Assembly (NCBI GenBank): GCA_947494565.1
Contig: CANLVG010000005.1
Coordinates: forward strand, 1-64,000
DNA from: an uncultured Flavobacteriaceae bacterium
GTDB lineage: Bacteria; Bacteroidota; Bacteroidia; Flavobacteriales; Flavobacteriaceae
DNA: 64,000 bases
Reading direction: 5' to 3'
Position numbers and translations under genes: made by a program
Notes under the pieces: generated by a model
Database searches by the model: none
What the model saw: only the letters and a program-made list of their open reading frames with translations
What the model was told of the DNA's origin: nothing
Shown: positions 15,813 to 26,849 of the stretch, one piece after another
Layout: the number at the start of each line of letters is the position of its first letter
How positions within the stretch are numbered: position 1 is the stretch's first letter

Positions 15813-18020
15813 ATGAGATTAAAAACTACTTTATTTTTATTTACTGCCCTTCTGTACTTTACTCAAGTTGAGGCCCAGTCATGTAATGGCGCCGATTTTG
15901 AGGAAAGAAACGGAATAGCGATCCTTGAATTGGACTCTAAAGTCTCAGGTTCTTGGAGAAAAGAGAATATTTCTGGAGCATCTGGTGGTCAAGCTTTGAC
16001 TTACAGAGGGTCTGATAAATTTAATACCCCTGGCACCTCAGAGATAGTGTATAAAGTCAAAATCAATTCTCCTGGAACCTACAGATTCAAATGGAGAAAT
16101 AAGATTAGCATCATCGGAACAGGTAGTGAGCCTGCAAATACAGAGCACAATGATTCTTGGTTGAAAATCGATGCATCGGATTTTTACGGTGCTACAGGCA
16201 ACACTAGGGTTTATCCTGGGGGGTCTGGTAAAAAACCTGTTGCCAAAGGGTCTACTTCTGGGGGTTGGTTCAAGATTTACACGAACTCAATTGGATGGAG
16301 TTGGATAACACGTACCAGTGATTTTGAGAATCACGATATCTATGCGAAATTTAACAATGCAGGTGTTTATAACATTCGAATTTCTGCACGTTCCAAAGGT
16401 CACACCGTTGATAGAATGGTTCTTTATAAGGAAAATCAATACTCTAATGCACAATCGGAGAGCTTATCAAGAGCAGTAACGAGTTGTTCTGGCGGTACAA
16501 CTCCTGACAATAATGCGCCAACGGTAAATATTACCAACCCTGATAATGGTCAGCAATTTGACGAGGGAGATAATATTGCGGTAAGACTAAACTCCAATGA
16601 TTCTGACGGTAATGTGACGAAACATGAAATTTTTATAAATGGTACCAGGGTTTCAAATCAAGGCAGTGATTATTCACCATATGTTTTGAGAAATGCAACC
16701 CCTGGTAATTACACCATTCAAGCCACGGTAACGGATAATGATGGTGCGAAATCTTCAAATACAGTGAATGTTTCGGTTGGAGAAAATACGCCACCACCTA
16801 CCGGGAATAACGCACCGACCGTTAGTATCACAAGTCCTAATGATGGTCAGAACTTCGATGCTGGTAGCAATGTTCCGGTGAGATTATCGGCCAACGATTC
16901 CGATGGTAGCATCAAGAAGCACCAGATTTTTGTTAACAATAAGTTAGTTGATACTGATGGAGCTGGCTATACACCACATGTTATCCAAAATATTAAACCG
17001 GGTAATTATGCGATAAAGGCCACGGTGACGGATAATGGTGGAAAGACTGCTTCGAAAACAGTGAACATTGTGGTAGGAGATGATGACACCCCTCCACCAT
17101 CTGGAAATCAGGCTCCGACCGTTAGTTTCACAAACCTATCGAATGGCGACCAGGTAGAAGTAGGAAGCAATGTTGTGGTAAGAATTAGTGCTAATGATAG
17201 TGATGGACGCATAGTCAAGCATCAGGTTTTCGTTAATGGGAAGTTGGTTGATACAGATGGTGCTGATTATACTCCGCATCCAATAAAAAATGTTACTGCA
17301 GGTTCGTATAAAATTAAGGTCACCGTAACGGATAACCAAGGAGCAACAGGTTCTAGCACTATTGATATTACCGCTGGAACGGGAACACCACCTCCAACTA
17401 CGTCTAACATTAGTTTTAATTTAATAAATGCGGCAACAAATAGTAATATCGGCGCAATTACTGACGGTACTACGATTAATTCATCAAAAGCTCAAGGTAT
17501 TAATATTAAGATCAATGCGCCTGAAGGAACAAAAAGAGTAAGCTATGGGCTTTATAGTAACGGTTTCGAAGTTAGTGTTGGTATTGAGGAATTCGCTCCC
17601 TATGCGGTGTTTGGTGATACTAACGGAAATTATTTTTCCGAAACATTGAGCAGTGGCTCTTACAGATTGTTAGCCGTGGCTTATTCAAGTGCGACGAATA
17701 ACAATAGTGTCATTGAGCGCAAAACAATTCGGTTCACTGTAGGGTCAAGTTCCGGTAAATCGGCAATTTTGTTCCCTAACCCAGTATCTACTGACGGCAA
17801 GGTATCCTTAAGGTTGCCTGAAGGTGCTTCTGGAAAATATGAATATAGTGTAACAAACTCTTTAGGGGTTCAGGTAGAAAAAGGAACATTTGACGCTGCA
17901 TCTTCTCAGAGAGATGTAGAGTTGAGTCTGTCCAATATTGGCAGACAAGTTCAAGGTGTCTACTATATGACACTTAGTTCATCAGGATCCAAAGAAACGA
18001 TTCCTCTTATTAGAGAATAA
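15813..18020 (+). CDS. Secreted multi-domain protein with Ig-like repeats and T9SS sorting domain
   Basis: A 735-residue exported protein. Residues 1-22 form a signal peptide ending VEAQ. Residues about 23-225 form a Trp- and Tyr-rich module that looks like a beta-sandwich carbohydrate-binding domain, which I cannot assign to a family. Three related Ig-like repeats of about 99 residues begin near 232, 332 and 431, each with an APTVxxTxPxxG opening and an NDSDGxxxKHxxFVN core. A further beta domain spans about 530-648. The end (from about 649, LFPNPVS) is a type A T9SS C-terminal domain, so the protein should be secreted by the type IX system and possibly anchored. No catalytic domain is visible, so adhesion or polysaccharide binding is the likely role. 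Strong terminator follows. Confidence 0.85.
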   Translation: MRLKTTLFLFTALLYFTQVEAQSCNGADFEERNGIAILELDSKVSGSWRKENISGASGGQALTYRGSDKFNTPGTSEIVYKVKINSPGTYRFKWRNKISIIGTGSEPANTEHNDSWLKIDASDFYGATGNTRVYPGGSGKKPVAKGSTSGGWFKIYTNSIGWSWITRTSDFENHDIYAKFNNAGVYNIRISARSKGHTVDRMVLYKENQYSNAQSESLSRAVTSCSGGTTPDNNAPTVNITNPDNGQQFDEGDNIAVRLNSNDSDGNVTKHEIFINGTRVSNQGSDYSPYVLRNATPGNYTIQATVTDNDGAKSSNTVNVSVGENTPPPTGNNAPTVSITSPNDGQNFDAGSNVPVRLSANDSDGSIKKHQIFVNNKLVDTDGAGYTPHVIQNIKPGNYAIKATVTDNGGKTASKTVNIVVGDDDTPPPSGNQAPTVSFTNLSNGDQVEVGSNVVVRISANDSDGRIVKHQVFVNGKLVDTDGADYTPHPIKNVTAGSYKIKVTVTDNQGATGSSTIDITAGTGTPPPTTSNISFNLINAATNSNIGAITDGTTINSSKAQGINIKINAPEGTKRVSYGLYSNGFEVSVGIEEFAPYAVFGDTNGNYFSETLSSGSYRLLAVAYSSATNNNSVIERKTIRFTVGSSSGKSAILFPNPVSTDGKVSLRLPEGASGKYEYSVTNSLGVQVEKGTFDAASSQRDVELSLSNIGRQVQGVYYMTLSSSGSKETIPLIRE

Positions 18021-18040
18021 GTAGATTCCTAGTATATTAA

Positions 18041-18074
18041 AATCGGCTCCTTTTTTAAGGAGCCGATTTTTTTT
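18041..18074. terminator. Bidirectional terminator
   Basis: The stem AATCGGCTCCTT (18041-18052) and AAGGAGCCGATT (18057-18068) has a TTTT loop and T-runs on both strands. It lies between convergent genes ending at 18020 and 18094 and can serve both. Confidence 0.92.
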
Positions 18075-18093: not shown

Positions 18094-19257
18094 TTATTTC
18101 TGAATAAGATGATTAGGAAAATCTTGGATGTTTTCGCAGCAAATCTGTTCCATCACCTGTTGTAATTGCGCTTTTAACAGAGAAATAGTGTGGTTTCCAC
18201 CTTCAGCGCCTAATGCCGCTACTCCGTACATAAAAGAACGACCCATAAAAGTGAATTTGGCACCACTGGCCATTGTTCGGGCGATGTCAGGGCCAGATCT
18301 AAGACCACTATCCATCATGACCTCAATTTGGCTGCCATAGGCCTCAGCGATACGTGCTAATGGTCGAATGGTCGACTCACCAGCGTCCAACTGACGCCCA
18401 CCGTGATTGGATACGATGACTCCGTCCAAACCGAGCTGAATGGCTTTCTTAACATCGGCTTCACAAGCGACACCCTTCAAAACCAACTTTCCTTTCCACA
18501 TGTCTCGTATAGGCTTGATACGCTCCTCATTTAAGCGACCTGAGAAGGTTTGGTCCATAAATTGTCCCAGTTGCTTTAAATCCAAATTCTTTGGCATGTA
18601 AGGTCTTAGGGTCTCGAAATTAGGTTGTCCGTGCCTAAGGGTTTGAAGTGCCCAATTAGGCTTACCCATAATTTGTAAGATATTGGCAATCGACATTTTT
18701 GGAGGCATGGCCAAACCGTTGCGGATGTCTCTAGGTCTAAAGCCAAAAGTGGGTACATCCGATAGGATAACTAGAACGGGGCACTCAGCAGCTGCCGCAC
18801 GTCTAATGATATCGTCTCTCAGTTCGGTTTTGGCGGGATGATAGAGTTGAAACCAGGCTTGTCCTTCTGTAATTTCGGAAATACGTTCAATGGCACTGGT
18901 CGATACCGTACTGAGCACGAAAGGAATATTGTGTTCGAAGGCGGCTTTTGCTAAGATTTCGGGAGAGTTTGGCCACATTAAGCCTTGAAGTCCTACAGGG
19001 GCAATACCGAAGGGTGCATCGTACGAATGACCAAAGAGCTTCGTCTTCATATTTGATCCGCTGTGTTTGCTCAGGTAATAGGGGAGGAGCTCCACCTCTC
19101 GAATTTCAGCTGTATTCTTATGTAGGTTGATATCCTCGTTACATCCCCCGTCTAAATATTCAAAAGCGAATTTTGGAATTCTTTTTTTGGCTTTGGCTCT
19201 CAGGTCCTCTACAGATGGGTATCGACTATCGAAGTTTGATTTTCCTTTTTTCGGCAT
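18094..19257 (-). CDS. FMN-dependent alpha-hydroxy-acid dehydrogenase (L-lactate dehydrogenase type)
   Basis: A 387-residue member of the FMN-dependent 2-hydroxy-acid oxidoreductase family (lactate dehydrogenase LldD, glycolate oxidase, lactate oxidase). The TIM-barrel motifs are present: FEYLDGG near the start, PFGIAPVGLQGL, and SNHGGRQLD near residue 283 with the catalytic histidine, then DSGLRSGPDIARTMASGA and FMGRSFMYG for FMN phosphate binding. It oxidises an L-2-hydroxy acid to a 2-oxo acid; acceptor (quinone, cytochrome or O2) is not visible. It is last in a five-gene operon with two cytochrome-motif proteins, 12 bases after its neighbour, so a cytochrome-linked role is plausible. No signal peptide is seen. 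Confidence 0.88.
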   Translation of the reverse strand: MPKKGKSNFDSRYPSVEDLRAKAKKRIPKFAFEYLDGGCNEDINLHKNTAEIREVELLPYYLSKHSGSNMKTKLFGHSYDAPFGIAPVGLQGLMWPNSPEILAKAAFEHNIPFVLSTVSTSAIERISEITEGQAWFQLYHPAKTELRDDIIRRAAAAECPVLVILSDVPTFGFRPRDIRNGLAMPPKMSIANILQIMGKPNWALQTLRHGQPNFETLRPYMPKNLDLKQLGQFMDQTFSGRLNEERIKPIRDMWKGKLVLKGVACEADVKKAIQLGLDGVIVSNHGGRQLDAGESTIRPLARIAEAYGSQIEVMMDSGLRSGPDIARTMASGAKFTFMGRSFMYGVAALGAEGGNHTISLLKAQLQQVMEQICCENIQDFPNHLIQK

Positions 19258-19269
19258 AAGTCTCTCGGT

Positions 19270-20643
19270 TTATCCTTGGCCAATAATTAACTGGAGTTCT
19301 TCATTATTGTCTTGCAAAGCCTTGGCTTTATTCGAAGTTATTTCGGTTTGCCATAAATATACCCGTCTTAGGCCTTCCATTTTTTCAAGGTCGGTCAAAC
19401 ATTCGTCGGTTACTTTTGTACGATACAGATTCAAAGACTCAAGGTGTTTTAGTGCTGATAAAGCCGCTACACCCGGATCACCAATATTGGTTTTTTCTAA
19501 TTGCAGGCGAGTAAGGTTCTTGAAATTTGCGATGGTCGCGAGTCCTTCATCCGTTATGTTCGTATTGGCCAAAGAGAGCCAGGTAATGTGCTCTGCTGCT
19601 GGCTCAAGACTCCTTAACTGTTCATCGGTCAGATCGGTACCTGAGAATTTGACATCCAAAAGCGGATTGGTCGCACCTAGAATCTTTACGGTGAAACCAT
19701 TTTCCTCAACATTGGCAATGGTAACACTGTCCAAGGGTGGGATATTGACCGTTTCATAGTAGGGTTTCGGATTTGTGTCTAAACTATAGCGCCGGAGTAG
19801 TGTAGGCTTAATGCTCTCGGGGACCTCCAAATCAGTTAACGATTTGTCCGCCGCCGCTCCAGAAGCGATCCACCACTCCAAAACCTTAATTTCGTCATAG
19901 GTCAATGGATCCCCAACAGGAGGCATAAATTTGATATTTTTCTGTGGTAGGGTTACCCGTCGGAATAATTCACTTTCGATAACGTTGCCCGATAAAAATG
20001 CAGGACCTCCGTCGCCTCCGACAAGCATTGAATCTATCGAAGCCATGTTCAAACCACCTCGCTGTACTTTATTATCGTGGCAAGCAAAGCATTTTTGTTC
20101 AAAAATGGGTTGTACCAGATCGTTGTATACAATAACGGAGTCTGCAGCGGAAAAATCCATGATATCCGATTCTTCGTTCAACATAAGATTTTTAATGGGT
20201 TCTGGAGCATATTCGAATAAATAGGATGCGCCGTGGGTAAGATTTCCTCCTAAATGCCCTTCGAAAATCAAAAGTCCCAGAATCAAAAGGTTGGTAATGC
20301 GATGTGTTGCTGCCGAATGTCTAGTCGAATCTTTTTTCAACCACCATCCTACCAAGGAAATGATTACAATAAGAATGCCTACCCAACGATGCAGGAAGAG
20401 ATCGTCTTCGAAGTAAAGACCTGTTTCTCCCAACCACCATCCACAGAAGGCTGCGAAGGCTCCACCGATAGCTCCTAAAAGCCAGGCGTAGCCAATAAGA
20501 TCGCTAAGTTTTTCGGTTTTTTTCCAACGTTGATACCATTCCATTAGAATTCCTAAAAGCAAGAATCCTATCGGGAGATGTACTAGTATCGGGTGAAAAC
20601 GACCAACAAAATTGGTAAAGTCAAATGCAAGAAATAGGTTCAT
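19270..20643 (-). CDS. DUF2231-like membrane protein with cytochrome c motif and leucine-rich repeats
   Basis: A 457-residue protein with three parts. Residues about 15-140 hold four hydrophobic helices with FHPILVHLPIG, the opening of the DUF2231 family. Residues about 168-265 form a Planctomycete-type cytochrome c domain with heme motif CFACH (C185, C188, H189) and a distal MPP loop that could give the second ligand. Residues about 330-440 are leucine-rich repeats of about 24 residues. The cytochrome and LRR parts should face the periplasm. It lies 17 bases after the beta-propeller gene. Heme binding is inferred from the motif, and the partner recognised by the LRR part is unknown. Confidence 0.82.
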   Translation of the reverse strand: MNLFLAFDFTNFVGRFHPILVHLPIGFLLLGILMEWYQRWKKTEKLSDLIGYAWLLGAIGGAFAAFCGWWLGETGLYFEDDLFLHRWVGILIVIISLVGWWLKKDSTRHSAATHRITNLLILGLLIFEGHLGGNLTHGASYLFEYAPEPIKNLMLNEESDIMDFSAADSVIVYNDLVQPIFEQKCFACHDNKVQRGGLNMASIDSMLVGGDGGPAFLSGNVIESELFRRVTLPQKNIKFMPPVGDPLTYDEIKVLEWWIASGAAADKSLTDLEVPESIKPTLLRRYSLDTNPKPYYETVNIPPLDSVTIANVEENGFTVKILGATNPLLDVKFSGTDLTDEQLRSLEPAAEHITWLSLANTNITDEGLATIANFKNLTRLQLEKTNIGDPGVAALSALKHLESLNLYRTKVTDECLTDLEKMEGLRRVYLWQTEITSNKAKALQDNNEELQLIIGQG

Positions 20644-20660
20644 TTATACTATTTACGGAT

Positions 20661-21716
20661 TTATATTCTATTTAATTTTATAGGATAGGTCTTATTCGAT
20701 GCCCATTGCGGTACATATAGATTACCATCGCCATCAACAAGCACGTCATGGGGATTCTTGAAAGTACCTCCGTCATATAGCGGTGTGTCAAGTATACCGT
20801 CTGAATACCGAGGCTTATCTCCTCCTGGAAAAGAAAGGACTTTGTTGTTTTTGTCCAAGACGGCCAACATGCCGTCCCAGGTATCCCAGGTTTTTGTCAC
20901 GATTACCGCAAAATAGAGGTTCTCGCCATGAATAACGGGTCGACAAATGGAGCATCCAGGAAGGGAAATCGTCTCTAAATGTTCACCGTCCAGCGAAAAA
21001 CGTTTGAATTCCTGACTGGCCCTAGAAGTAATTAGGAGGGTTGGATTTTCCTTGTTCCGCGTATCCAATGTAATGCCATGGCAGCAATTGAATTGATCGT
21101 CGGCCTCGCCAGTTCCACCAAAATGGGAAATGTAGTCGCCTTTCGCGCTATATTTTATGATGAAGTTTTTGCCATAGCCGTCGGCTACATAAAAATCGCC
21201 ATTTGGAAGTATGGCCGTTTCGGTAGGCTTAAACTGATCATCGCTTGTATATCCTGAAACTTCCTTAGGGCGTTCGAGGGTCATGAGAATTCTTCCGTCC
21301 AAAGTGGTTTTGCTTACTTTGTGAGAATCTGGATCGGTAATAAAAAGAAACTGGTCTTTACCCTCACCAGTAATAGATAGGCCATGTGCTCCTGGAAATT
21401 CGGTTCCCCATGATTCCAATACTTTTCCGGATTTGTCATACACCAAAACGTTATTGTTGTTCGCGCCGGTGGTAGTCATTAAAATACGGCCTTGGTCATC
21501 AAGTACCATTTCATGACAGTCGTTAACAGGAATTTTCGAGGGGTCTTGAATACCCCATTCCTGATCCACCGTATACTGAAAATCACCATGTCCTACTCTT
21601 TTCGCAGCACCTCCTCTCTTTGTAATGATTCCGAAAGAATAGTCAGGTAGGGCAATACTAGCTGCTGAAGCGGCCAAGGTTTTTTTAATAAAAATTCTTC
21701 TTGTATTGGGTTTCAT
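20661..21716 (-). CDS. Tat-exported NHL/six-bladed beta-propeller protein
   Basis: A 351-residue protein with a twin-arginine signal (TRRIFIKKT at residues 5-13, then an Ala-rich helix ending near SFG). The rest is a series of beta-propeller blades of NHL type, with recurring patterns such as NDCHEMVLDDQGRILMT, GAHGLSITGEG, NGDFYVADGYG, CCHGITLD and NPHDVLVDGDGNLYVPQW. This family includes peptidyl-alpha-hydroxyglycine lyase-like propellers and binding scaffolds, and the histidines at similar blade positions could coordinate a metal. The ATG at 21716 is chosen over one at 21776, which overlaps the upstream gene and places the Tat motif far from the N-terminus. Enzyme activity is not established. 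Confidence 0.8.
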   Translation of the reverse strand: MKPNTRRIFIKKTLAASAASIALPDYSFGIITKRGGAAKRVGHGDFQYTVDQEWGIQDPSKIPVNDCHEMVLDDQGRILMTTTGANNNNVLVYDKSGKVLESWGTEFPGAHGLSITGEGKDQFLFITDPDSHKVSKTTLDGRILMTLERPKEVSGYTSDDQFKPTETAILPNGDFYVADGYGKNFIIKYSAKGDYISHFGGTGEADDQFNCCHGITLDTRNKENPTLLITSRASQEFKRFSLDGEHLETISLPGCSICRPVIHGENLYFAVIVTKTWDTWDGMLAVLDKNNKVLSFPGGDKPRYSDGILDTPLYDGGTFKNPHDVLVDGDGNLYVPQWASNKTYPIKLNRI

Positions 21717-21738
21717 GTTCCTTGTTTTTTGTGAGTTA

Positions 21739-23205
21739 TCATGCCAGTATTTCTTTAACGACTTCACCATGCACATCGGTAAGTCGATATCGTCGTCCCT
21801 GAAATTTGAATGTCAGTCGTTCATGGTCTATGCCAAGCAAATGCATTAAGGTGGCTTGAAAATCGTGCACGTGTACCGGTCTTTGGACTACGTTGTAACC
21901 AAAATCATCCGTGGCACCCAGAGAGAATCCTTTTTTGATTCCGGCACCGGCCATAAAGATGGTAAAGCATTTAGGATGATGGTCACGACCGAAATTGGTG
22001 TCGGTAAGTTGGCCTTGAGAATAGTTGGTTCGGCCGAACTCTCCCCCCCAGATGACCAAAGTATCTTCGAGCATGCCGCGTTGTTTCAAATCGGTTATCA
22101 ATGCTGCTGTGGCCTGATCGGTCTCTTTACATTGAACTTTTATAGCACTGGGTAAGTTGCCGTGTTGGTCCCAACCTTGGTGATAGAGTTGTATAAATTT
22201 CACATCACGCTCTGCCAAGCGCCTCGCCAAGATGCAGTTGGCCGCAAAAGTCCCAGGTTTTCGACTATCCTCTCCGTACATATCATAAATATAATCGGAT
22301 TCATCCGTTGTATCCATGATTTCAGGTACTGAGGTCTGCATTCTAAAGGCCATTTCGTATTGGGCCATTCTAGCCAAAATCTCAGGATCTCCCAAATCAT
22401 CATGGTTTATCTTTTCGAGACGTTGTAACTGATCCAATTGTTCACGTCTGGTCTTTCCGTCGATGCCGGGTGGATTGGTTAAATAGAGTACTGGGTCTTT
22501 TCCTGCCCTGAATTGTACCCCTTGATGTTGAGAAGGTAGAAAGCCATTCCCCCACGCTCGCGAATATAGGGGTTGTCCGAATTTGTCTTTCGTGACGAGG
22601 ACCACGAATTCAGGAAGGTTCTTATTATCCGTTCCAAGGCCATAACTTACCCATGAGCCAATTGAAGGCCGACCGGGAAGTTGGGATCCTGTTTGAAAGA
22701 AGGTTACGGCCGGATCGTGATTGATCGCTTCCGTATACATTGATTTGATAAAGCAAAGATCGTCGACTATTTTCGCGGTATGCGGCATAAGTTCGCTCAT
22801 AAGGGCGCCGCTATCTCCATGTTGCTTGAAAGAAAATGGCGATCCGGCAATGGGTAAAGTGGCTTGACCAGAGGACATTCCTGTCAATCGCTGCCCCTGT
22901 TGAACACTTTCGGGCAGATCTTGACCATTCATTTTATTTAGTAATGGCTTATGGTCGAACAAATCTATTTGCGAGGGTGCTCCACTCTGAAATAGGTAGA
23001 TAACACGTTTTACTTTAGGTGGAAAATGGGCCTGCCCCAGGACGCCGCCGCCATTGAGATTTGGAATGCCGGAAAGTGATTTCTCTTTTCCAAAAAGACT
23101 CATAGGGTCAAGCATTGAACCCATAGTCAACGCTCCCATTCCTAAGGTGGTCTTGGTGAGGAAATCTCTTCTCGTATAATTTTTTTTATGCTCGTGGGTA
23201 CACAT
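21739..23205 (-). CDS. Tat-exported DUF1501 family protein
   Basis: A 488-residue protein starting with a twin-arginine signal (TRRDFLTKT at residues 11-19). The body matches the DUF1501 family, a sulfatase/alkaline-phosphatase-like fold common in Planctomycetes, with typical segments LFQSGAPSQIDLFDHKP, SYGLGTDN, LYHQGWDQHGNL, WGGEFGRTNYSQG and GRDHHPKCF. Conserved His/Asp/Gln residues suggest a metal site, but no formylglycine cysteine motif is seen. Biochemical function of DUF1501 is unknown. It starts 4 bases after the DUF1549/DUF1553 cytochrome gene, a pairing common in Planctomycetes and marine Bacteroidota. Confidence 0.88.
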   Translation of the reverse strand: MCTHEHKKNYTRRDFLTKTTLGMGALTMGSMLDPMSLFGKEKSLSGIPNLNGGGVLGQAHFPPKVKRVIYLFQSGAPSQIDLFDHKPLLNKMNGQDLPESVQQGQRLTGMSSGQATLPIAGSPFSFKQHGDSGALMSELMPHTAKIVDDLCFIKSMYTEAINHDPAVTFFQTGSQLPGRPSIGSWVSYGLGTDNKNLPEFVVLVTKDKFGQPLYSRAWGNGFLPSQHQGVQFRAGKDPVLYLTNPPGIDGKTRREQLDQLQRLEKINHDDLGDPEILARMAQYEMAFRMQTSVPEIMDTTDESDYIYDMYGEDSRKPGTFAANCILARRLAERDVKFIQLYHQGWDQHGNLPSAIKVQCKETDQATAALITDLKQRGMLEDTLVIWGGEFGRTNYSQGQLTDTNFGRDHHPKCFTIFMAGAGIKKGFSLGATDDFGYNVVQRPVHVHDFQATLMHLLGIDHERLTFKFQGRRYRLTDVHGEVVKEILA

Positions 23206-23209
23206 GGTC

Positions 23210-26200
23210 TTATCTTTTCATATAGGCTTCGTCATGGTTCAGCATCGTATTGGCTACCATGGTCAATGCTGCTGTTTTTGTTTTGTCCAAATTGTCTTCC
23301 AGTTGCTGTTGGCCTACGGATAACAGTTGGTCAGCTTCTTTCGGAGCCTTTTTGAAACGCCTTTGTTGTGTTTCGAAAATTTCCTTGAAAATCGTCTTTT
23401 CTTCTTCTTTCGGATAACGGCTTACTGCTAATCGAAAACCGTAGGTGATCTGTTCATCCAATGATGTTCCACCTTCTTTTTGCATTCTAGAGGCAAGAAC
23501 TTTAGAAGCTTCCACAAATTGGGTGTCGTTCATTAGAACCAATGCCTGAAGTGGTGTGTTGGTATTTTCCCGTTGCACAGTGCAAACCTCTCGGCTGGGC
23601 GCGTCAAAAGCGGTCATCGCCGGATGGGGCGATGTGCGCCTTATAAATGTGTACAGCCCTCTTCGGTAAAGGCTATCGCCCTGTGATTCTTTATAGTTCA
23701 GTAATTTATGCGAGAAACTGTTCTTTTCGATCCATAGCTTGCCTGGTTGATATGGTTTTACACTTTCTCCACCTACTTGTTGAACCAAAAGTCCACTTGC
23801 CGCCAACGCATTGTCTCGAATCATTTCTGCCGGTAAACGATAACTGTTGCTCCTTGCCAAATAAAAATTATTGGGATCTTTTTCTCTCATTTCTTCGGAA
23901 ACTTGGGAAGACTGACGGTAGGTATGCGACATCACCATTGTTTTCAAAAGCGCCTTGACATCCCATCCACTTTCTATGAATTCTACGGCCAACCAATCAA
24001 TCAATTCAGGATGCGAGGGTAAAGCTCCCTGAACTCCAAAATCTTGGGGTGTATCTACCAAGCCTTTACCAAATAACATTTGCCAGTAACGATTCACCGT
24101 AACTCTGGCCGTCAATGGGTTTTCTTCGGAAAAAAGCCATTTGGACAAGCCCAATCGATTTTTTGGATAGGCGTCGGAAAACTTGGGCAATACTTCAGGT
24201 GTATTGGGTTCAACTTGATATATGGGTTGCGAATAGTCTCCACGATTATAGGCATATGCAGGTCTGTTTTGAGGCATTTCTTCCATGACCATAACTTCCA
24301 TCACCGGCATCATCAGTTGCAACCACTCGTTTCTAAGTTCTTTAAGGTCGGCCGCTATATTACGAACTTCGGGAGATTGGTTGATCTTATACTCTTGTAC
24401 CAGCTTTTTTTCCGGAGCTTCTTTTGAAGAACCATCTTTGGTAAGCAGTAATACTTCCAACGGTGTCAATTCTTTTGAATACATTCGAATATCATCAAGG
24501 GCACCTTTGAAAATTCCATTTTCTCCCGTAAAGCCCCTGTAACTTTTCGCTACTCTGACGGGTTGCTTATAAAGGGTATGAACCGCTGACCTTATGGTTT
24601 TGATGGATTTATAAAGATTATCATGACCTACTTCACTTTCCACTTTCTTTCCATCGATAAACAATGATAACCCTTGGGCCTTACCGGATCCATTGTATGA
24701 AAATGCAACATGTTGCCATTCATTTGTTTTAAGAGAGTCTTTCGATTTTACGTGAATATAGTTGTGCGGCAAGGAGTGAATCAATCTAGCATTTAGGTAG
24801 TTCAGGCTGTCAAGATAAAAGTCCCATCCACGCCAAAAATTATTTTTTTCGCCTGACGTGCCCATCAGTGTTTGCGTTTTCAGCTTTTCTCTTTTGGTGG
24901 TTTTCAGCCATAGACTTCCAGAGAAGGTATCTGTCCACTCGAAATTGGGAATGTTATTCAGATATACTTCATCGTACTCCCCCGTAAACACCAGGGCATT
25001 CCCTTTTTTACCCTCAATGATTCCAGGAGCTTTGGATGCCGTTGCATTCGTAGTGCGGTCTATGACATAGGTGTCGCCTTGTCGGGCTACCTTATCGAAA
25101 GGATAATGGCCCAAAAGCTCTTTTTTGGTTGCATCTTTAGGTAAGGTTGTGATATAGGTTTCGAGATTGGCAAGTTCTTTTTTGGTCAACTCAAGTGTTT
25201 GCTCTTTTGCGGTAATTAGTTTTTCTAATTTGCCTAGTTTTTCCTCCGTTTCAGTGTCTGGTAAGGCAAGCATCGGACCATAATTGCCATCATCACCGGT
25301 CATACCCAGTTCTTTTACATTGTTGAAGAATGCAGTTAACCTATAGTAGTCTTTTTGGGAAATGGGGTCGAACTTATGATCGTGACAACGGGCGCAGGAA
25401 ACTGTTAGGCCCATAAGCGCTGTTCCAACCGTTTCTGCACGGTCCCAAACGTAATTTAATCTGAACTCTTCCTCGATGGCTCCTCCTTCTGCTGTCATTG
25501 GATGGTTTCGGTTGAAAGCCGTTGCCAGTTTCTGTTCTTTGGTAGCTTTGGGAAAAAGATCCCCGGCCAACTGCCAAGTAACGAACTGATCATAAGGCAT
25601 ATTCTCTTTAAAGGCATTGATGACCCAATCGCGCCATGGCCACATAAGTCGCCAACCATCAGCATGCAGGCCGTGAGAATCGGCGTAGCGAGAGATGTCC
25701 ATCCAGTCTAGGGCAAGACGTTCCGCAGTGGCATCCGTTTGTAACAGTCTATCCACTACCTTCTCATAGGCATCAGCGCTTTTATTCTCTAAAAATAAAT
25801 CGAGTTCCTGTACCGTTGGAGGGAGTCCGGTCAAATCCATACTCACTCGACGGAGCAATCGTTCTCTGTCGGCCTCTGGGGCAGGCTGATATCCTTTTTG
25901 CTTCAATCGCCCTTGAACGAAACCATCGATTGGGTTATAGCTCGGCCAGTTGTCATTGCCGATCTTGTGGTTTGGTCTTTCGGGTTTAACAAAGGCCCAG
26001 TGGTCTTTCCATTCTGCTCCTTGTTCGATCCATTTGATGATCATTGCCTTTTCATTTGGTGATAAGGACAAATTTGATTCAGGTGGAGGCATTTGAATTT
26101 CGGGATCATTGCTCAATATGCGCTGCACACTTGAACTACGTTCGGGTTTGTTTGCGACAAAAGCCCGTGCTCCGCTGGATAAGGTTGAAAATGCCTCTTC

Positions 26201-26431
26201 GGCCAGATCTAATCGAAGTCCTGCTTTTCTTGTGTTCTCATCCGGCCCGTGACAATTAAAGCAACGGTCGGAAAGAATAGGTTTGACATGAAAGTTGAAA
26301 TCTACGATTTCAGGAAGGTCTTCGTAGGCATCGGCCACTTCGCTGGGCAAATCAGGCCCACATGAAATCACCAGTAGGCAGACCCAAAGAGCTATGGTTT
26401 CCGAAAAACTTATTTTTTTAAGCGGTAGCAT
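23210..26431 (-). CDS. DUF1549/DUF1553 cytochrome c lipoprotein with a LamG domain
   Basis: A 1073-residue protein. A lipobox LLVISC places the lipidated cysteine at C24. The Planctomycete cytochrome c domain follows, with CFNCH (C57, C60, H61) and a MPPP segment as likely distal ligand. The DUF1549 domain begins near residue 165, and a second heme-type motif CARCH lies at about 345-349. About residues 430-690 contain a LamG/concanavalin-like domain, inserted before DUF1553 (about 760-1070, with TARVTVNRYWQMLFG and SHTYRQSS). It is first in a five-gene operon. The architecture suggests an exported redox or carbohydrate-active protein, but no activity is known for DUF1549 or DUF1553. Confidence 0.88.
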   Translation of the reverse strand: MLPLKKISFSETIALWVCLLVISCGPDLPSEVADAYEDLPEIVDFNFHVKPILSDRCFNCHGPDENTRKAGLRLDLAEEAFSTLSSGARAFVANKPERSSSVQRILSNDPEIQMPPPESNLSLSPNEKAMIIKWIEQGAEWKDHWAFVKPERPNHKIGNDNWPSYNPIDGFVQGRLKQKGYQPAPEADRERLLRRVSMDLTGLPPTVQELDLFLENKSADAYEKVVDRLLQTDATAERLALDWMDISRYADSHGLHADGWRLMWPWRDWVINAFKENMPYDQFVTWQLAGDLFPKATKEQKLATAFNRNHPMTAEGGAIEEEFRLNYVWDRAETVGTALMGLTVSCARCHDHKFDPISQKDYYRLTAFFNNVKELGMTGDDGNYGPMLALPDTETEEKLGKLEKLITAKEQTLELTKKELANLETYITTLPKDATKKELLGHYPFDKVARQGDTYVIDRTTNATASKAPGIIEGKKGNALVFTGEYDEVYLNNIPNFEWTDTFSGSLWLKTTKREKLKTQTLMGTSGEKNNFWRGWDFYLDSLNYLNARLIHSLPHNYIHVKSKDSLKTNEWQHVAFSYNGSGKAQGLSLFIDGKKVESEVGHDNLYKSIKTIRSAVHTLYKQPVRVAKSYRGFTGENGIFKGALDDIRMYSKELTPLEVLLLTKDGSSKEAPEKKLVQEYKINQSPEVRNIAADLKELRNEWLQLMMPVMEVMVMEEMPQNRPAYAYNRGDYSQPIYQVEPNTPEVLPKFSDAYPKNRLGLSKWLFSEENPLTARVTVNRYWQMLFGKGLVDTPQDFGVQGALPSHPELIDWLAVEFIESGWDVKALLKTMVMSHTYRQSSQVSEEMREKDPNNFYLARSNSYRLPAEMIRDNALAASGLLVQQVGGESVKPYQPGKLWIEKNSFSHKLLNYKESQGDSLYRRGLYTFIRRTSPHPAMTAFDAPSREVCTVQRENTNTPLQALVLMNDTQFVEASKVLASRMQKEGGTSLDEQITYGFRLAVSRYPKEEEKTIFKEIFETQQRRFKKAPKEADQLLSVGQQQLEDNLDKTKTAALTMVANTMLNHDEAYMKR

Positions 26432-26633: not shown

Positions 26634-26708
26634 GGGATATTAGCTCAGTTGGTTTAGAGCGCTGCCTTGACAGGGCAGAGGTCACTGGTTCGAATCCAGT
26701 ATATCCCA
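26634..26708 (+). tRNA. tRNA-Val (anticodon GAC)
   Basis: Acceptor GGGATAT (26634-26640) pairs fully with ATATCCC (26701-26707). The D stem is GCTC/GAGC, the anticodon stem CTGCC/GGCAG with loop TTGACAG, giving anticodon GAC, hence valine and not aspartate. The T arm ACTGG-TTCGAAT-CCAGT equals that of the other valine tRNA in this window. The discriminator is A and CCA is not encoded. A near-consensus box TACTTTTA lies at 26612-26619. Confidence 0.96.
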
Positions 26709-26849
26709 CATTTTTCTTCTCTCATAGTAAGGAATCCAATCTCAGGATTTGTTTTTACCTAAAATTTTCATTTTTTTTTCAAATTAATTGTGACCTCTAT
26801 AAGAAAGCTGTGTCTTAAGAAATGTAACCATTTAATAGAGAACCTAACG

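Follow-up and report, generated by a model that had tools for sequence, protein, structure and literature searches.

A recurring cassette of exported cytochrome proteins with an LldD-like gene in Flavobacteriaceae and its probable link to fucose-containing glycans

Planctomycete-type gene pairs encoding a PSCyt/PSD (DUF1549/DUF1553) protein and a DUF1501 protein are close described relatives of a five-gene unit that we analyzed in an uncultured Flavobacteriaceae genome, within a window of 64,000 nucleotides (contig CANLVG010000005.1 of assembly GCA_947494565.1, positions 1 to 64,000). As the consulted parts of PMC5615132 and PMC2754498 describe them, these pairs have the same domains, neighboring sulfatases, and a carbohydrate-binding domain. 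PMC5615132 proposes that PSCyt proteins near sulfatases have a part in carbohydrate use and suggests that they act on imported mono- or oligomers in Verrucomicrobia; its passages on PSCyt proteins name no sugar or pathway. In contrast, the unit described here lies in a Flavobacteriaceae genome together with genes for an NHL propeller, for a protein that joins a DUF2231 domain, a cytochrome domain, and leucine-rich repeats (LRR), and for enzymes of the fucose pathway.

Two accounts of deoxyhexose breakdown bear on the last gene of the unit, lldD. The non-phosphorylating L-fucose pathway FucM/A/B/C/F/G, in the sections of PMC11199699 that we drew on, has L-lactate among its end products, made through the FucF/FucG route, and the window genome contains a candidate gene for each step; here, however, the pathway genes occupy four separate loci, of which three adjoin cytochrome cassettes, and LldD is added. 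In the part of PMC3870299 concerned with L-rhamnose, breakdown via RhaEW likewise makes L-lactate, and lldD belongs to the RhaR regulons of Actinomycetales and Rhodobacterales, where L-lactate dehydrogenase extends the deoxyhexose pathway to pyruvate; the genes described here differ in being from Flavobacteriaceae and in concerning fucose as well as rhamnose. A further likeness is to the peptidylglycine alpha-amidating lyase (PAL) domain of PAM (PDB 3fvz), an NHL propeller whose three histidines and one tyrosine align with the propeller of our unit, although the latter is a bacterial protein of ~350 amino acids with a twin-arginine (Tat) signal, in another context and known from its sequence.

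We propose, with a probability of roughly 60%, that the unit joins a pathway enzyme to an envelope cassette of four genes that recurs in other genomes, and that the cassette probably serves fucose-containing (sulfated) glycans. Searches of open papers found nothing that ties the DUF1501, DUF1549, DUF1553, or PSCyt domains to fucose catabolism. As far as our literature searches show, it is new that a named sugar pathway lies beside three cassette types and that LldD is frequent in Flavobacteriaceae deoxyhexose operons; the same applies to the set of PAL-like residues that we find in the propeller and to the histidines that do not vary in DUF2231. The fucose link offers a specific sugar with which to begin testing these widespread, unexplained exported heme proteins, and tying three cassette types to L-fucose catabolism makes induction by a named sugar testable, with Maribacter algarum RZ26 and Ulvibacterium marinum as named isolates that carry all five genes. 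Should the cassettes indeed act on fucans, they would have a bearing on the turnover of slowly degraded algal carbon.

Four cassette genes and LldD

The unit consists of five minus-strand open reading frames (ORFs; Table 1) with intergenic gaps of 4, 22, 17, and 12 bases when the NHL protein is taken to start at 21716; its longest ORF starts at 21776 and would overlap the preceding gene. These boundaries agree with those given in a preliminary description of the locus, and Pfam recovered every domain named there. The hairpin that closes the 3' end of the unit is shared with a converging gene (15813-18020), and just three terminator-like sites, with 5-6 pairs each, were found on the minus strand inside the unit; counting both strands, the region has 13 such sites compared to 9.8 in shuffled sequences. 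The five genes are likely to be carried on one transcript. A Bacteroidota -33/-7 promoter upstream of the operon was rejected: the motif, in the form that we assumed for the scan, matches 3 times in the window (3.34 expected) and nowhere upstream of the operon.

Table 1 Coordinates of the five genes and the hairpin at their 3' end
Feature	Positions	Strand	Details
DUF1549/DUF1553 lipoprotein (PSCyt1-PSCyt2-LamG-PSD1)	23210..26431	-	1073 aa; Pfam
DUF1501 protein, twin-arginine signal	21739..23205	-	488 aa; Pfam
NHL beta-propeller, twin-arginine signal	20661..21716	-	351 aa from ATG at 21716; Pfam
DUF2231 membrane domain, PSCyt1 c-type heme domain, and leucine-rich repeats	19270..20643	-	457 aa; Pfam
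FMN-dependent 2-hydroxy-acid dehydrogenase, probable L-lactate dehydrogenase (LldD-like)	18094..19257	-	387 aa; FMN_dh E 9.6e-117
14-pair palindromic terminator-like hairpin between converging gene ends	18039..18070	.	hairpin scan

We compared the unit with named genomes using the NHL alignment, keeping the best 80 of 572 relatives. Among these 80 loci, 35 have the four cassette genes in order, 56 have adjacent DUF1549 and DUF1501 genes, and three have all five genes in order: M. algarum, U. marinum, and an uncultured Flavobacteriaceae genome. The preliminary description had suggested that the five genes could be a single envelope oxidation unit and had proposed such a comparison as a check. 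What remains of that suggestion is a recurring envelope unit in which c-type cytochrome proteins are joined by partners with Tat signals; LldD is not borne out as an integral member, given that the fifth gene so rarely follows the other four, an outcome that the description itself had named as refuting, and that DUF1549, DUF1501, NHL, and DUF2231-cytochrome genes are found in the flanks of none of 49 other LldD loci in the family. The three five-gene loci share with the window one syntenic site, near genes that we take to be gldJ- and murF-like (their families in the window were assigned by Pfam). In other genomes the same site holds the NHL gene alone (L150, L152, and L154 in our locus numbering), LldD alone (L080), four genes, or five; in Maribacter sp. 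PFL5 (L156:9977-13555) the NHL gene, a PfkB-type kinase gene, and a fuconate-dehydratase candidate lie there in a row. A 327-amino-acid gene resembling this kinase follows LldD at L158, where Pfam assigns it to PfkB, and at L159.

LldD matches the flavin mononucleotide (FMN)-dependent dehydrogenase family FMN_dh over its full length (390.4 bits against a cut-off of 24.9, residues 23-386) and is the sole full-length match in the window genome, where four others are partial. The motifs EYLDGG, WFQLY, LVLKG, and SNHGGRQLD are located at 33, 135, 258, and 283; we take the Tyr of the first two, the Lys of the third, and the His and Arg of the last to be catalytic. Its closest full-length solved relative is (S)-mandelate dehydrogenase (6bfg, aligned over 15-380), presumably a membrane-associated enzyme, and inspection of LldD by eye revealed no export signal.

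The gene neighborhoods of LldD point to the substrate. In a family sample of 149 genomes, 47 have an LldD match. We surveyed 49 LldD places from 46 genomes outside the window genome, mostly with ~9 kb on each flank (five have less than 8 kb on one side, and two of the proteins are just 34-40% identical), and their neighbors were labeled from BLAST matches to genes with Pfam and NCBIfam annotations. Rhamnose genes (bifunctional rhamnulose-phosphate aldolase/dehydrogenase, isomerase, kinase) accompany LldD at 21 places, fucose genes (fuconate-dehydratase candidate, 4-dehydrogenase, diketo hydrolase, lactonase, fucose dehydrogenase, FucP) at 15, both at 1, and neither at 12. Because the orthologues mostly sit near genes of routes that yield L-lactate, LldD is most likely an L-lactate dehydrogenase, in keeping with the earlier suggestion of a 2-hydroxy acid as substrate, and it very probably acts in fucose catabolism. 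We rejected the idea that LldD oxidizes glycolate or mandelate on behalf of the envelope, since gene context favors L-lactate, and L-rhamnose as the pathway in the window genome, which has no close L-rhamnose isomerase (best 24% identity). Electrons from LldD most likely reach the quinone pool on the cytoplasmic face of the membrane rather than the periplasmic cytochromes.

In the LldD tree, the window protein, the three LldDs from the other cassettes, and one from a fucose operon form a group (support 90/84). Two family genomes (G001 and G129) each have one copy in a fucose operon and one in a rhamnose operon, and U. marinum has, in addition to its cassette LldD, a separate copy ~21 kb away, directly behind RhaI-RhaK; the cassette copy therefore seems to take the fucose place.

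Fucose-pathway genes beside three cassette types

The fucose genes of the window genome adjoin three of its cassettes, with the pathway spread over four loci. On contig C1, genes for a mutarotase, FucP, fucose dehydrogenase, and lactonase lie just behind the cassette on the opposite strand, and on contig C7, 4-dehydrogenase and hydrolase genes follow a cassette directly on the same strand. LldD lies behind the window cassette (contig C5), and contig C3 has an AraC-type regulator and the fuconate-dehydratase candidate near sulfatase-like genes. FucP scores above the TIGR00885 cut-off (522.3 vs 280.4); the fucose dehydrogenase is 52% identical to a gene at L063 that passes NF052481 (414.1 vs 300); and a gene of the window genome is 85% identical to the fuconate-dehydratase candidate of an LldD-bearing fucose operon.

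The four exported or membrane proteins of the window are one subtype in a family of DUF1549-DUF1501 cassettes. The 5.39 Mb window assembly has 12 PSCyt1 matches and 9 DUF1501 matches (8 full length), with seven DUF1549-DUF1501 pairs, the window pair and six more elsewhere (ORFs shorter than 120 amino acids were ignored in this survey, and shorter than 100 otherwise); the eighth full-length DUF1501 gene is at L024. Downstream of the pair we found NHL, DUF2231-cytochrome, and LldD genes in the window, an NHL gene on contigs C16 and C1, DUF2231-cytochrome and sulfatase genes on C13, and genes for a Mala_s_1-like protein and a DUF2231-cytochrome on C4. On C7, the first pair is followed by DUF2231-cytochrome, SDR, and FAA hydrolase genes, and the second by genes for a xylose-isomerase-like barrel and a DUF2231-cytochrome, with a Na/sulfate symporter.

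Across the family sample, DUF1501 occurs at 97 places in 34 of the 149 genomes. After exclusion of the 12 weakest (E 2e-75 to 1.6e-32), 77 strong places outside the window genome were surveyed, 76 of them with DUF1549, and the statistics used 85, including 8 from the window genome. In a DUF1501 tree (FastTree, one run, 96 rows, with 14 of the 80 named loci taken in), separate clades hold the 11 rows of the window type, the 13 of the C1 type, and the 10 of the C7 type. The C1-type cassette has FucP, dehydrogenase, and lactonase genes alongside in the window genome, G018, and G001; beside the C7 type, the 4-dehydrogenase occurs in the window genome, G018, G032, and G050, and the hydrolase in the first three of these; and the window type has LldD in four genomes. 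Because the three fucose-linked cassettes fall in different DUF1501 clades, the link between cassette and fucose arose more than once. We regard these separate clades as a better argument for the link than the proximity test, in which genes within 10 kb of a cassette were counted against random placement: 5 of 23 hydrolase copies are that close (0.41 expected, P about 5e-5), three of the five being direct neighbors at 3.5 kb, and so are 3 of 35 FucP copies (0.48 expected, P 0.012), P values that are too small because orthologous cassettes were treated as independent. Taking this together, we lean toward a fucose-glycan role for the window cassette type, and the two further fucose-linked cassettes of the window genome probably also serve fucose-containing (sulfated) glycans.

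Like the inflated P values, several results weigh against this proposal. Among the five hydrolases near cassettes, one is 8 kb away on the opposite strand and another is just 50% identical. LldD is near a cassette in 1 of 26 copies, those of the 50 places that are in DUF1501-bearing genomes, which is not significant (0.43 expected, P 0.35). Fucose-pathway genes flank just 9 of the 77 other family cassettes and appear at just 6 of the 80 NHL loci, counts in which absences are incomplete where contig ends cut the flanks; as several subtypes lack any fucose-pathway gene, fucose is not the substrate of all cassettes. The lactonase (272.8 of 400) and hydrolase (350.5 of 500) fall under their equivalog cut-offs, and the dehydratase gene has no match to a fuconate-dehydratase model and weak ones to other enolase-family models, so that all three names rest on kinship and company. 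LldD too is under the NCBIfam cut-offs (NF033901 and PRK11197; 247.8 of 550 and 288.8 of 376, respectively), and the aldolase/dehydrogenase of the reference rhamnose operon scores above cut-off, its isomerase and kinase below. A second LldD copy in M. algarum, 73% identical, speaks against a strict exchange of copies.

Other explanations of the unit have to be set against this evidence. That the five genes form one envelope oxidation system, with LldD passing electrons from a 2-hydroxy acid to periplasmic cytochromes, would suit their single strand, their short gaps, and the identical order in three other genomes; we consider it improbable, given how rare that order is, the absence of cassette genes at the other LldD loci, the many LldD orthologues in sugar operons without a cassette, and the lack of a visible export signal. 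Alternatively, LldD may serve fucose and yet have no functional connection to the cassette, having landed by chance at a site of gene turnover. The site, between the gldJ/murF-like pair and another Mur-ligase gene, does vary in content among genomes, and LldD is not enriched near cassettes family-wide; what makes a chance insertion rather unlikely is that fucose-pathway genes appear repeatedly, both here and next to two other cassette types, and that the hydrolase is enriched near cassettes.

The cassette could also be a general periplasmic redox or stress module, its sugar neighbors simply reflecting glycan-rich genomes. Its subtypes adjoin a sulfatase, an SSF transporter, a Na/sulfate symporter, or a xylose-isomerase-like barrel, and in Rhodopirellula baltica an extracytoplasmic function (ECF) sigma factor, the proposed regulator of one DUF1549/1553 gene, is up under three stresses in the results consulted from PMC2754498. 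Against such a module stand the repeated pairing of particular subtypes with particular sugar genes and the LamG domain in the first protein, and we judge it unlikely.

Further subtypes were seen in the survey. At L011, L287, L280, L285, L290, and L294, the third gene encodes a xylose-isomerase-like barrel (AP_endonuc_2), a subtype that recurs across genera and in which a 476-amino-acid gene follows, at L011 a Na/sulfate-type symporter. At L244, L247, L255, L261, L236, and L237, the NHL gene is followed by two consecutive genes of the DUF2231-cytochrome type. Near the cassette on contig C16 (L013:506-7297) lie genes for a protein with a 3-keto-disaccharide hydrolase domain, a plastocyanin-like protein, and a DUF7133-cytochrome c protein, perhaps an oxidative glycoside route.

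The cassette proteins and their possible reactions

The alignments of the cassette proteins took in 29 of 36 suitable rows for DUF1549, 31 of 59 for DUF1501, and 23 of 39 for DUF2231. In the first protein, Pfam finds PSCyt1, PSCyt2/DUF1549, Laminin_G_3, and PSD1/DUF1553, with both DUF domains over cut-off and heme motifs present. C57-C60-H61, M114, C346-C349-H350, and H352 are invariant in all 30 rows (window plus 29 relatives), so that the two CxxCH motifs noted earlier in this protein, like the one in the fourth protein (24 of 24 rows), prove to be conserved; Met114 is a candidate axial ligand of the first heme. A lipobox-like LLVISC was read by eye at the start. Sequence searches of the PDB found no solved relative for the DUF1549/1553 parts, only the LamG part being matched; hydrazine synthase alpha matched the heme part weakly (E 0.13).

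The DUF1501 protein matches its Pfam domain over the full length and above cut-off (527.3 bits). In a profile comparison it matches a set of six sulfatases (81%, E 1.2e-5). All 12 of the weak matches in the PDB (E 0.03-0.54) are sulfatases, ENPP4, or an LtaS-type enzyme, members of one superfamily. The formylglycine (FGly) motif of sulfatases (C/S-x-P/A-S/A-x-R) is absent from all 32 rows, the DNG metal motif aligns with GEFG, and the protein falls outside the S1 sulfatases. The protein probably has an alkaline-phosphatase/sulfatase-superfamily fold without the FGly motif, a kinship at the superfamily level only; because the nucleophile motif is missing throughout, the protein may belong to the hydrolases of this superfamily that are not sulfatases.

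The NHL protein matches the PAL domain of PAM with E 1.9e-12; TRIM-type NHL propellers match as well, one of them slightly better. Its H111, H213, and H323 align with residues 94, 199, and 295 of the 3fvz chain and its Y181 with Y163, the third histidine just in a separate weak segment (4.3 bits), and all four residues are invariant in 80 of 80 rows (window plus 79 loci). The three 3fvz positions are spaced 105 and 201 apart, like the zinc ligands H585, H690, and H786 of rat PAM, to which we take them to correspond, with Y163 taken as the catalytic Y654. With this residue set present, the protein is a candidate PAL-type zinc propeller. Tat signals had been described for the DUF1501 and NHL proteins; indeed, both starts carry RR, which is found in 80 of 80 NHL rows, and the window genome encodes TatC and two c-heme assembly genes.

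The DUF2231 protein (DUF2231, PSCyt1, and LRR by Pfam) has H17, H22, H85, H130, H137, C185-C188-H189, and M240 invariant in 24 of 24 rows. The five histidines sit in its hydrophobic part, and some of them could hold b-heme. The protein is a candidate quinone-side electron carrier. Among PDB matches of its profile, the best 60 of 373 are leucine-rich-repeat matches, from residue 257 onward.

Gene content, conservation, residues, and genomic association are what we observed, and from them we infer each reaction and the electron route for a four-gene cassette joined to fucose catabolism. In the periplasm, the diheme DUF1549/1553 lipoprotein, the hydrolase-like DUF1501 protein, and the zinc-type NHL propeller would process a fucose oligosaccharide, with at least one step an oxidation. 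Electrons would pass through the c-heme of the DUF2231-PSCyt1-LRR protein to a membrane heme and on to menaquinone. Freed fucose would be imported by FucP and converted to pyruvate and L-lactate, which LldD would turn into pyruvate. A periplasmic oxidation with electrons reaching menaquinone through the DUF2231 protein is a tentative proposal that we hold to be possible. A more elaborate scheme, which we consider speculative and unlikely in full, is a cytochrome-wired oxidative dismantling of sulfated fucose glycans in the periplasm: the diheme protein would oxidize a sugar unit, the PAL-like zinc propeller (its place being taken in other subtypes by a xylose-isomerase-like barrel or a different propeller) would cleave the unstable product, DUF1501 would remove a group, and the DUF2231 membrane b/c-type cytochrome would return the electrons to menaquinone, each subtype being tuned to one glycan with cytoplasmic sugar genes alongside.

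A plasmid origin was rejected, as megablast against a plasmid collection gave no match. Just upstream of the operon, a tRNA-Val gene (anticodon gac) lies on the plus strand at 26634-26709. The convergent gene at 15813-18020 encodes a secreted protein with three Big_7 domains, and a Big_7 protein gene adjoins LldD in the same place at L080.

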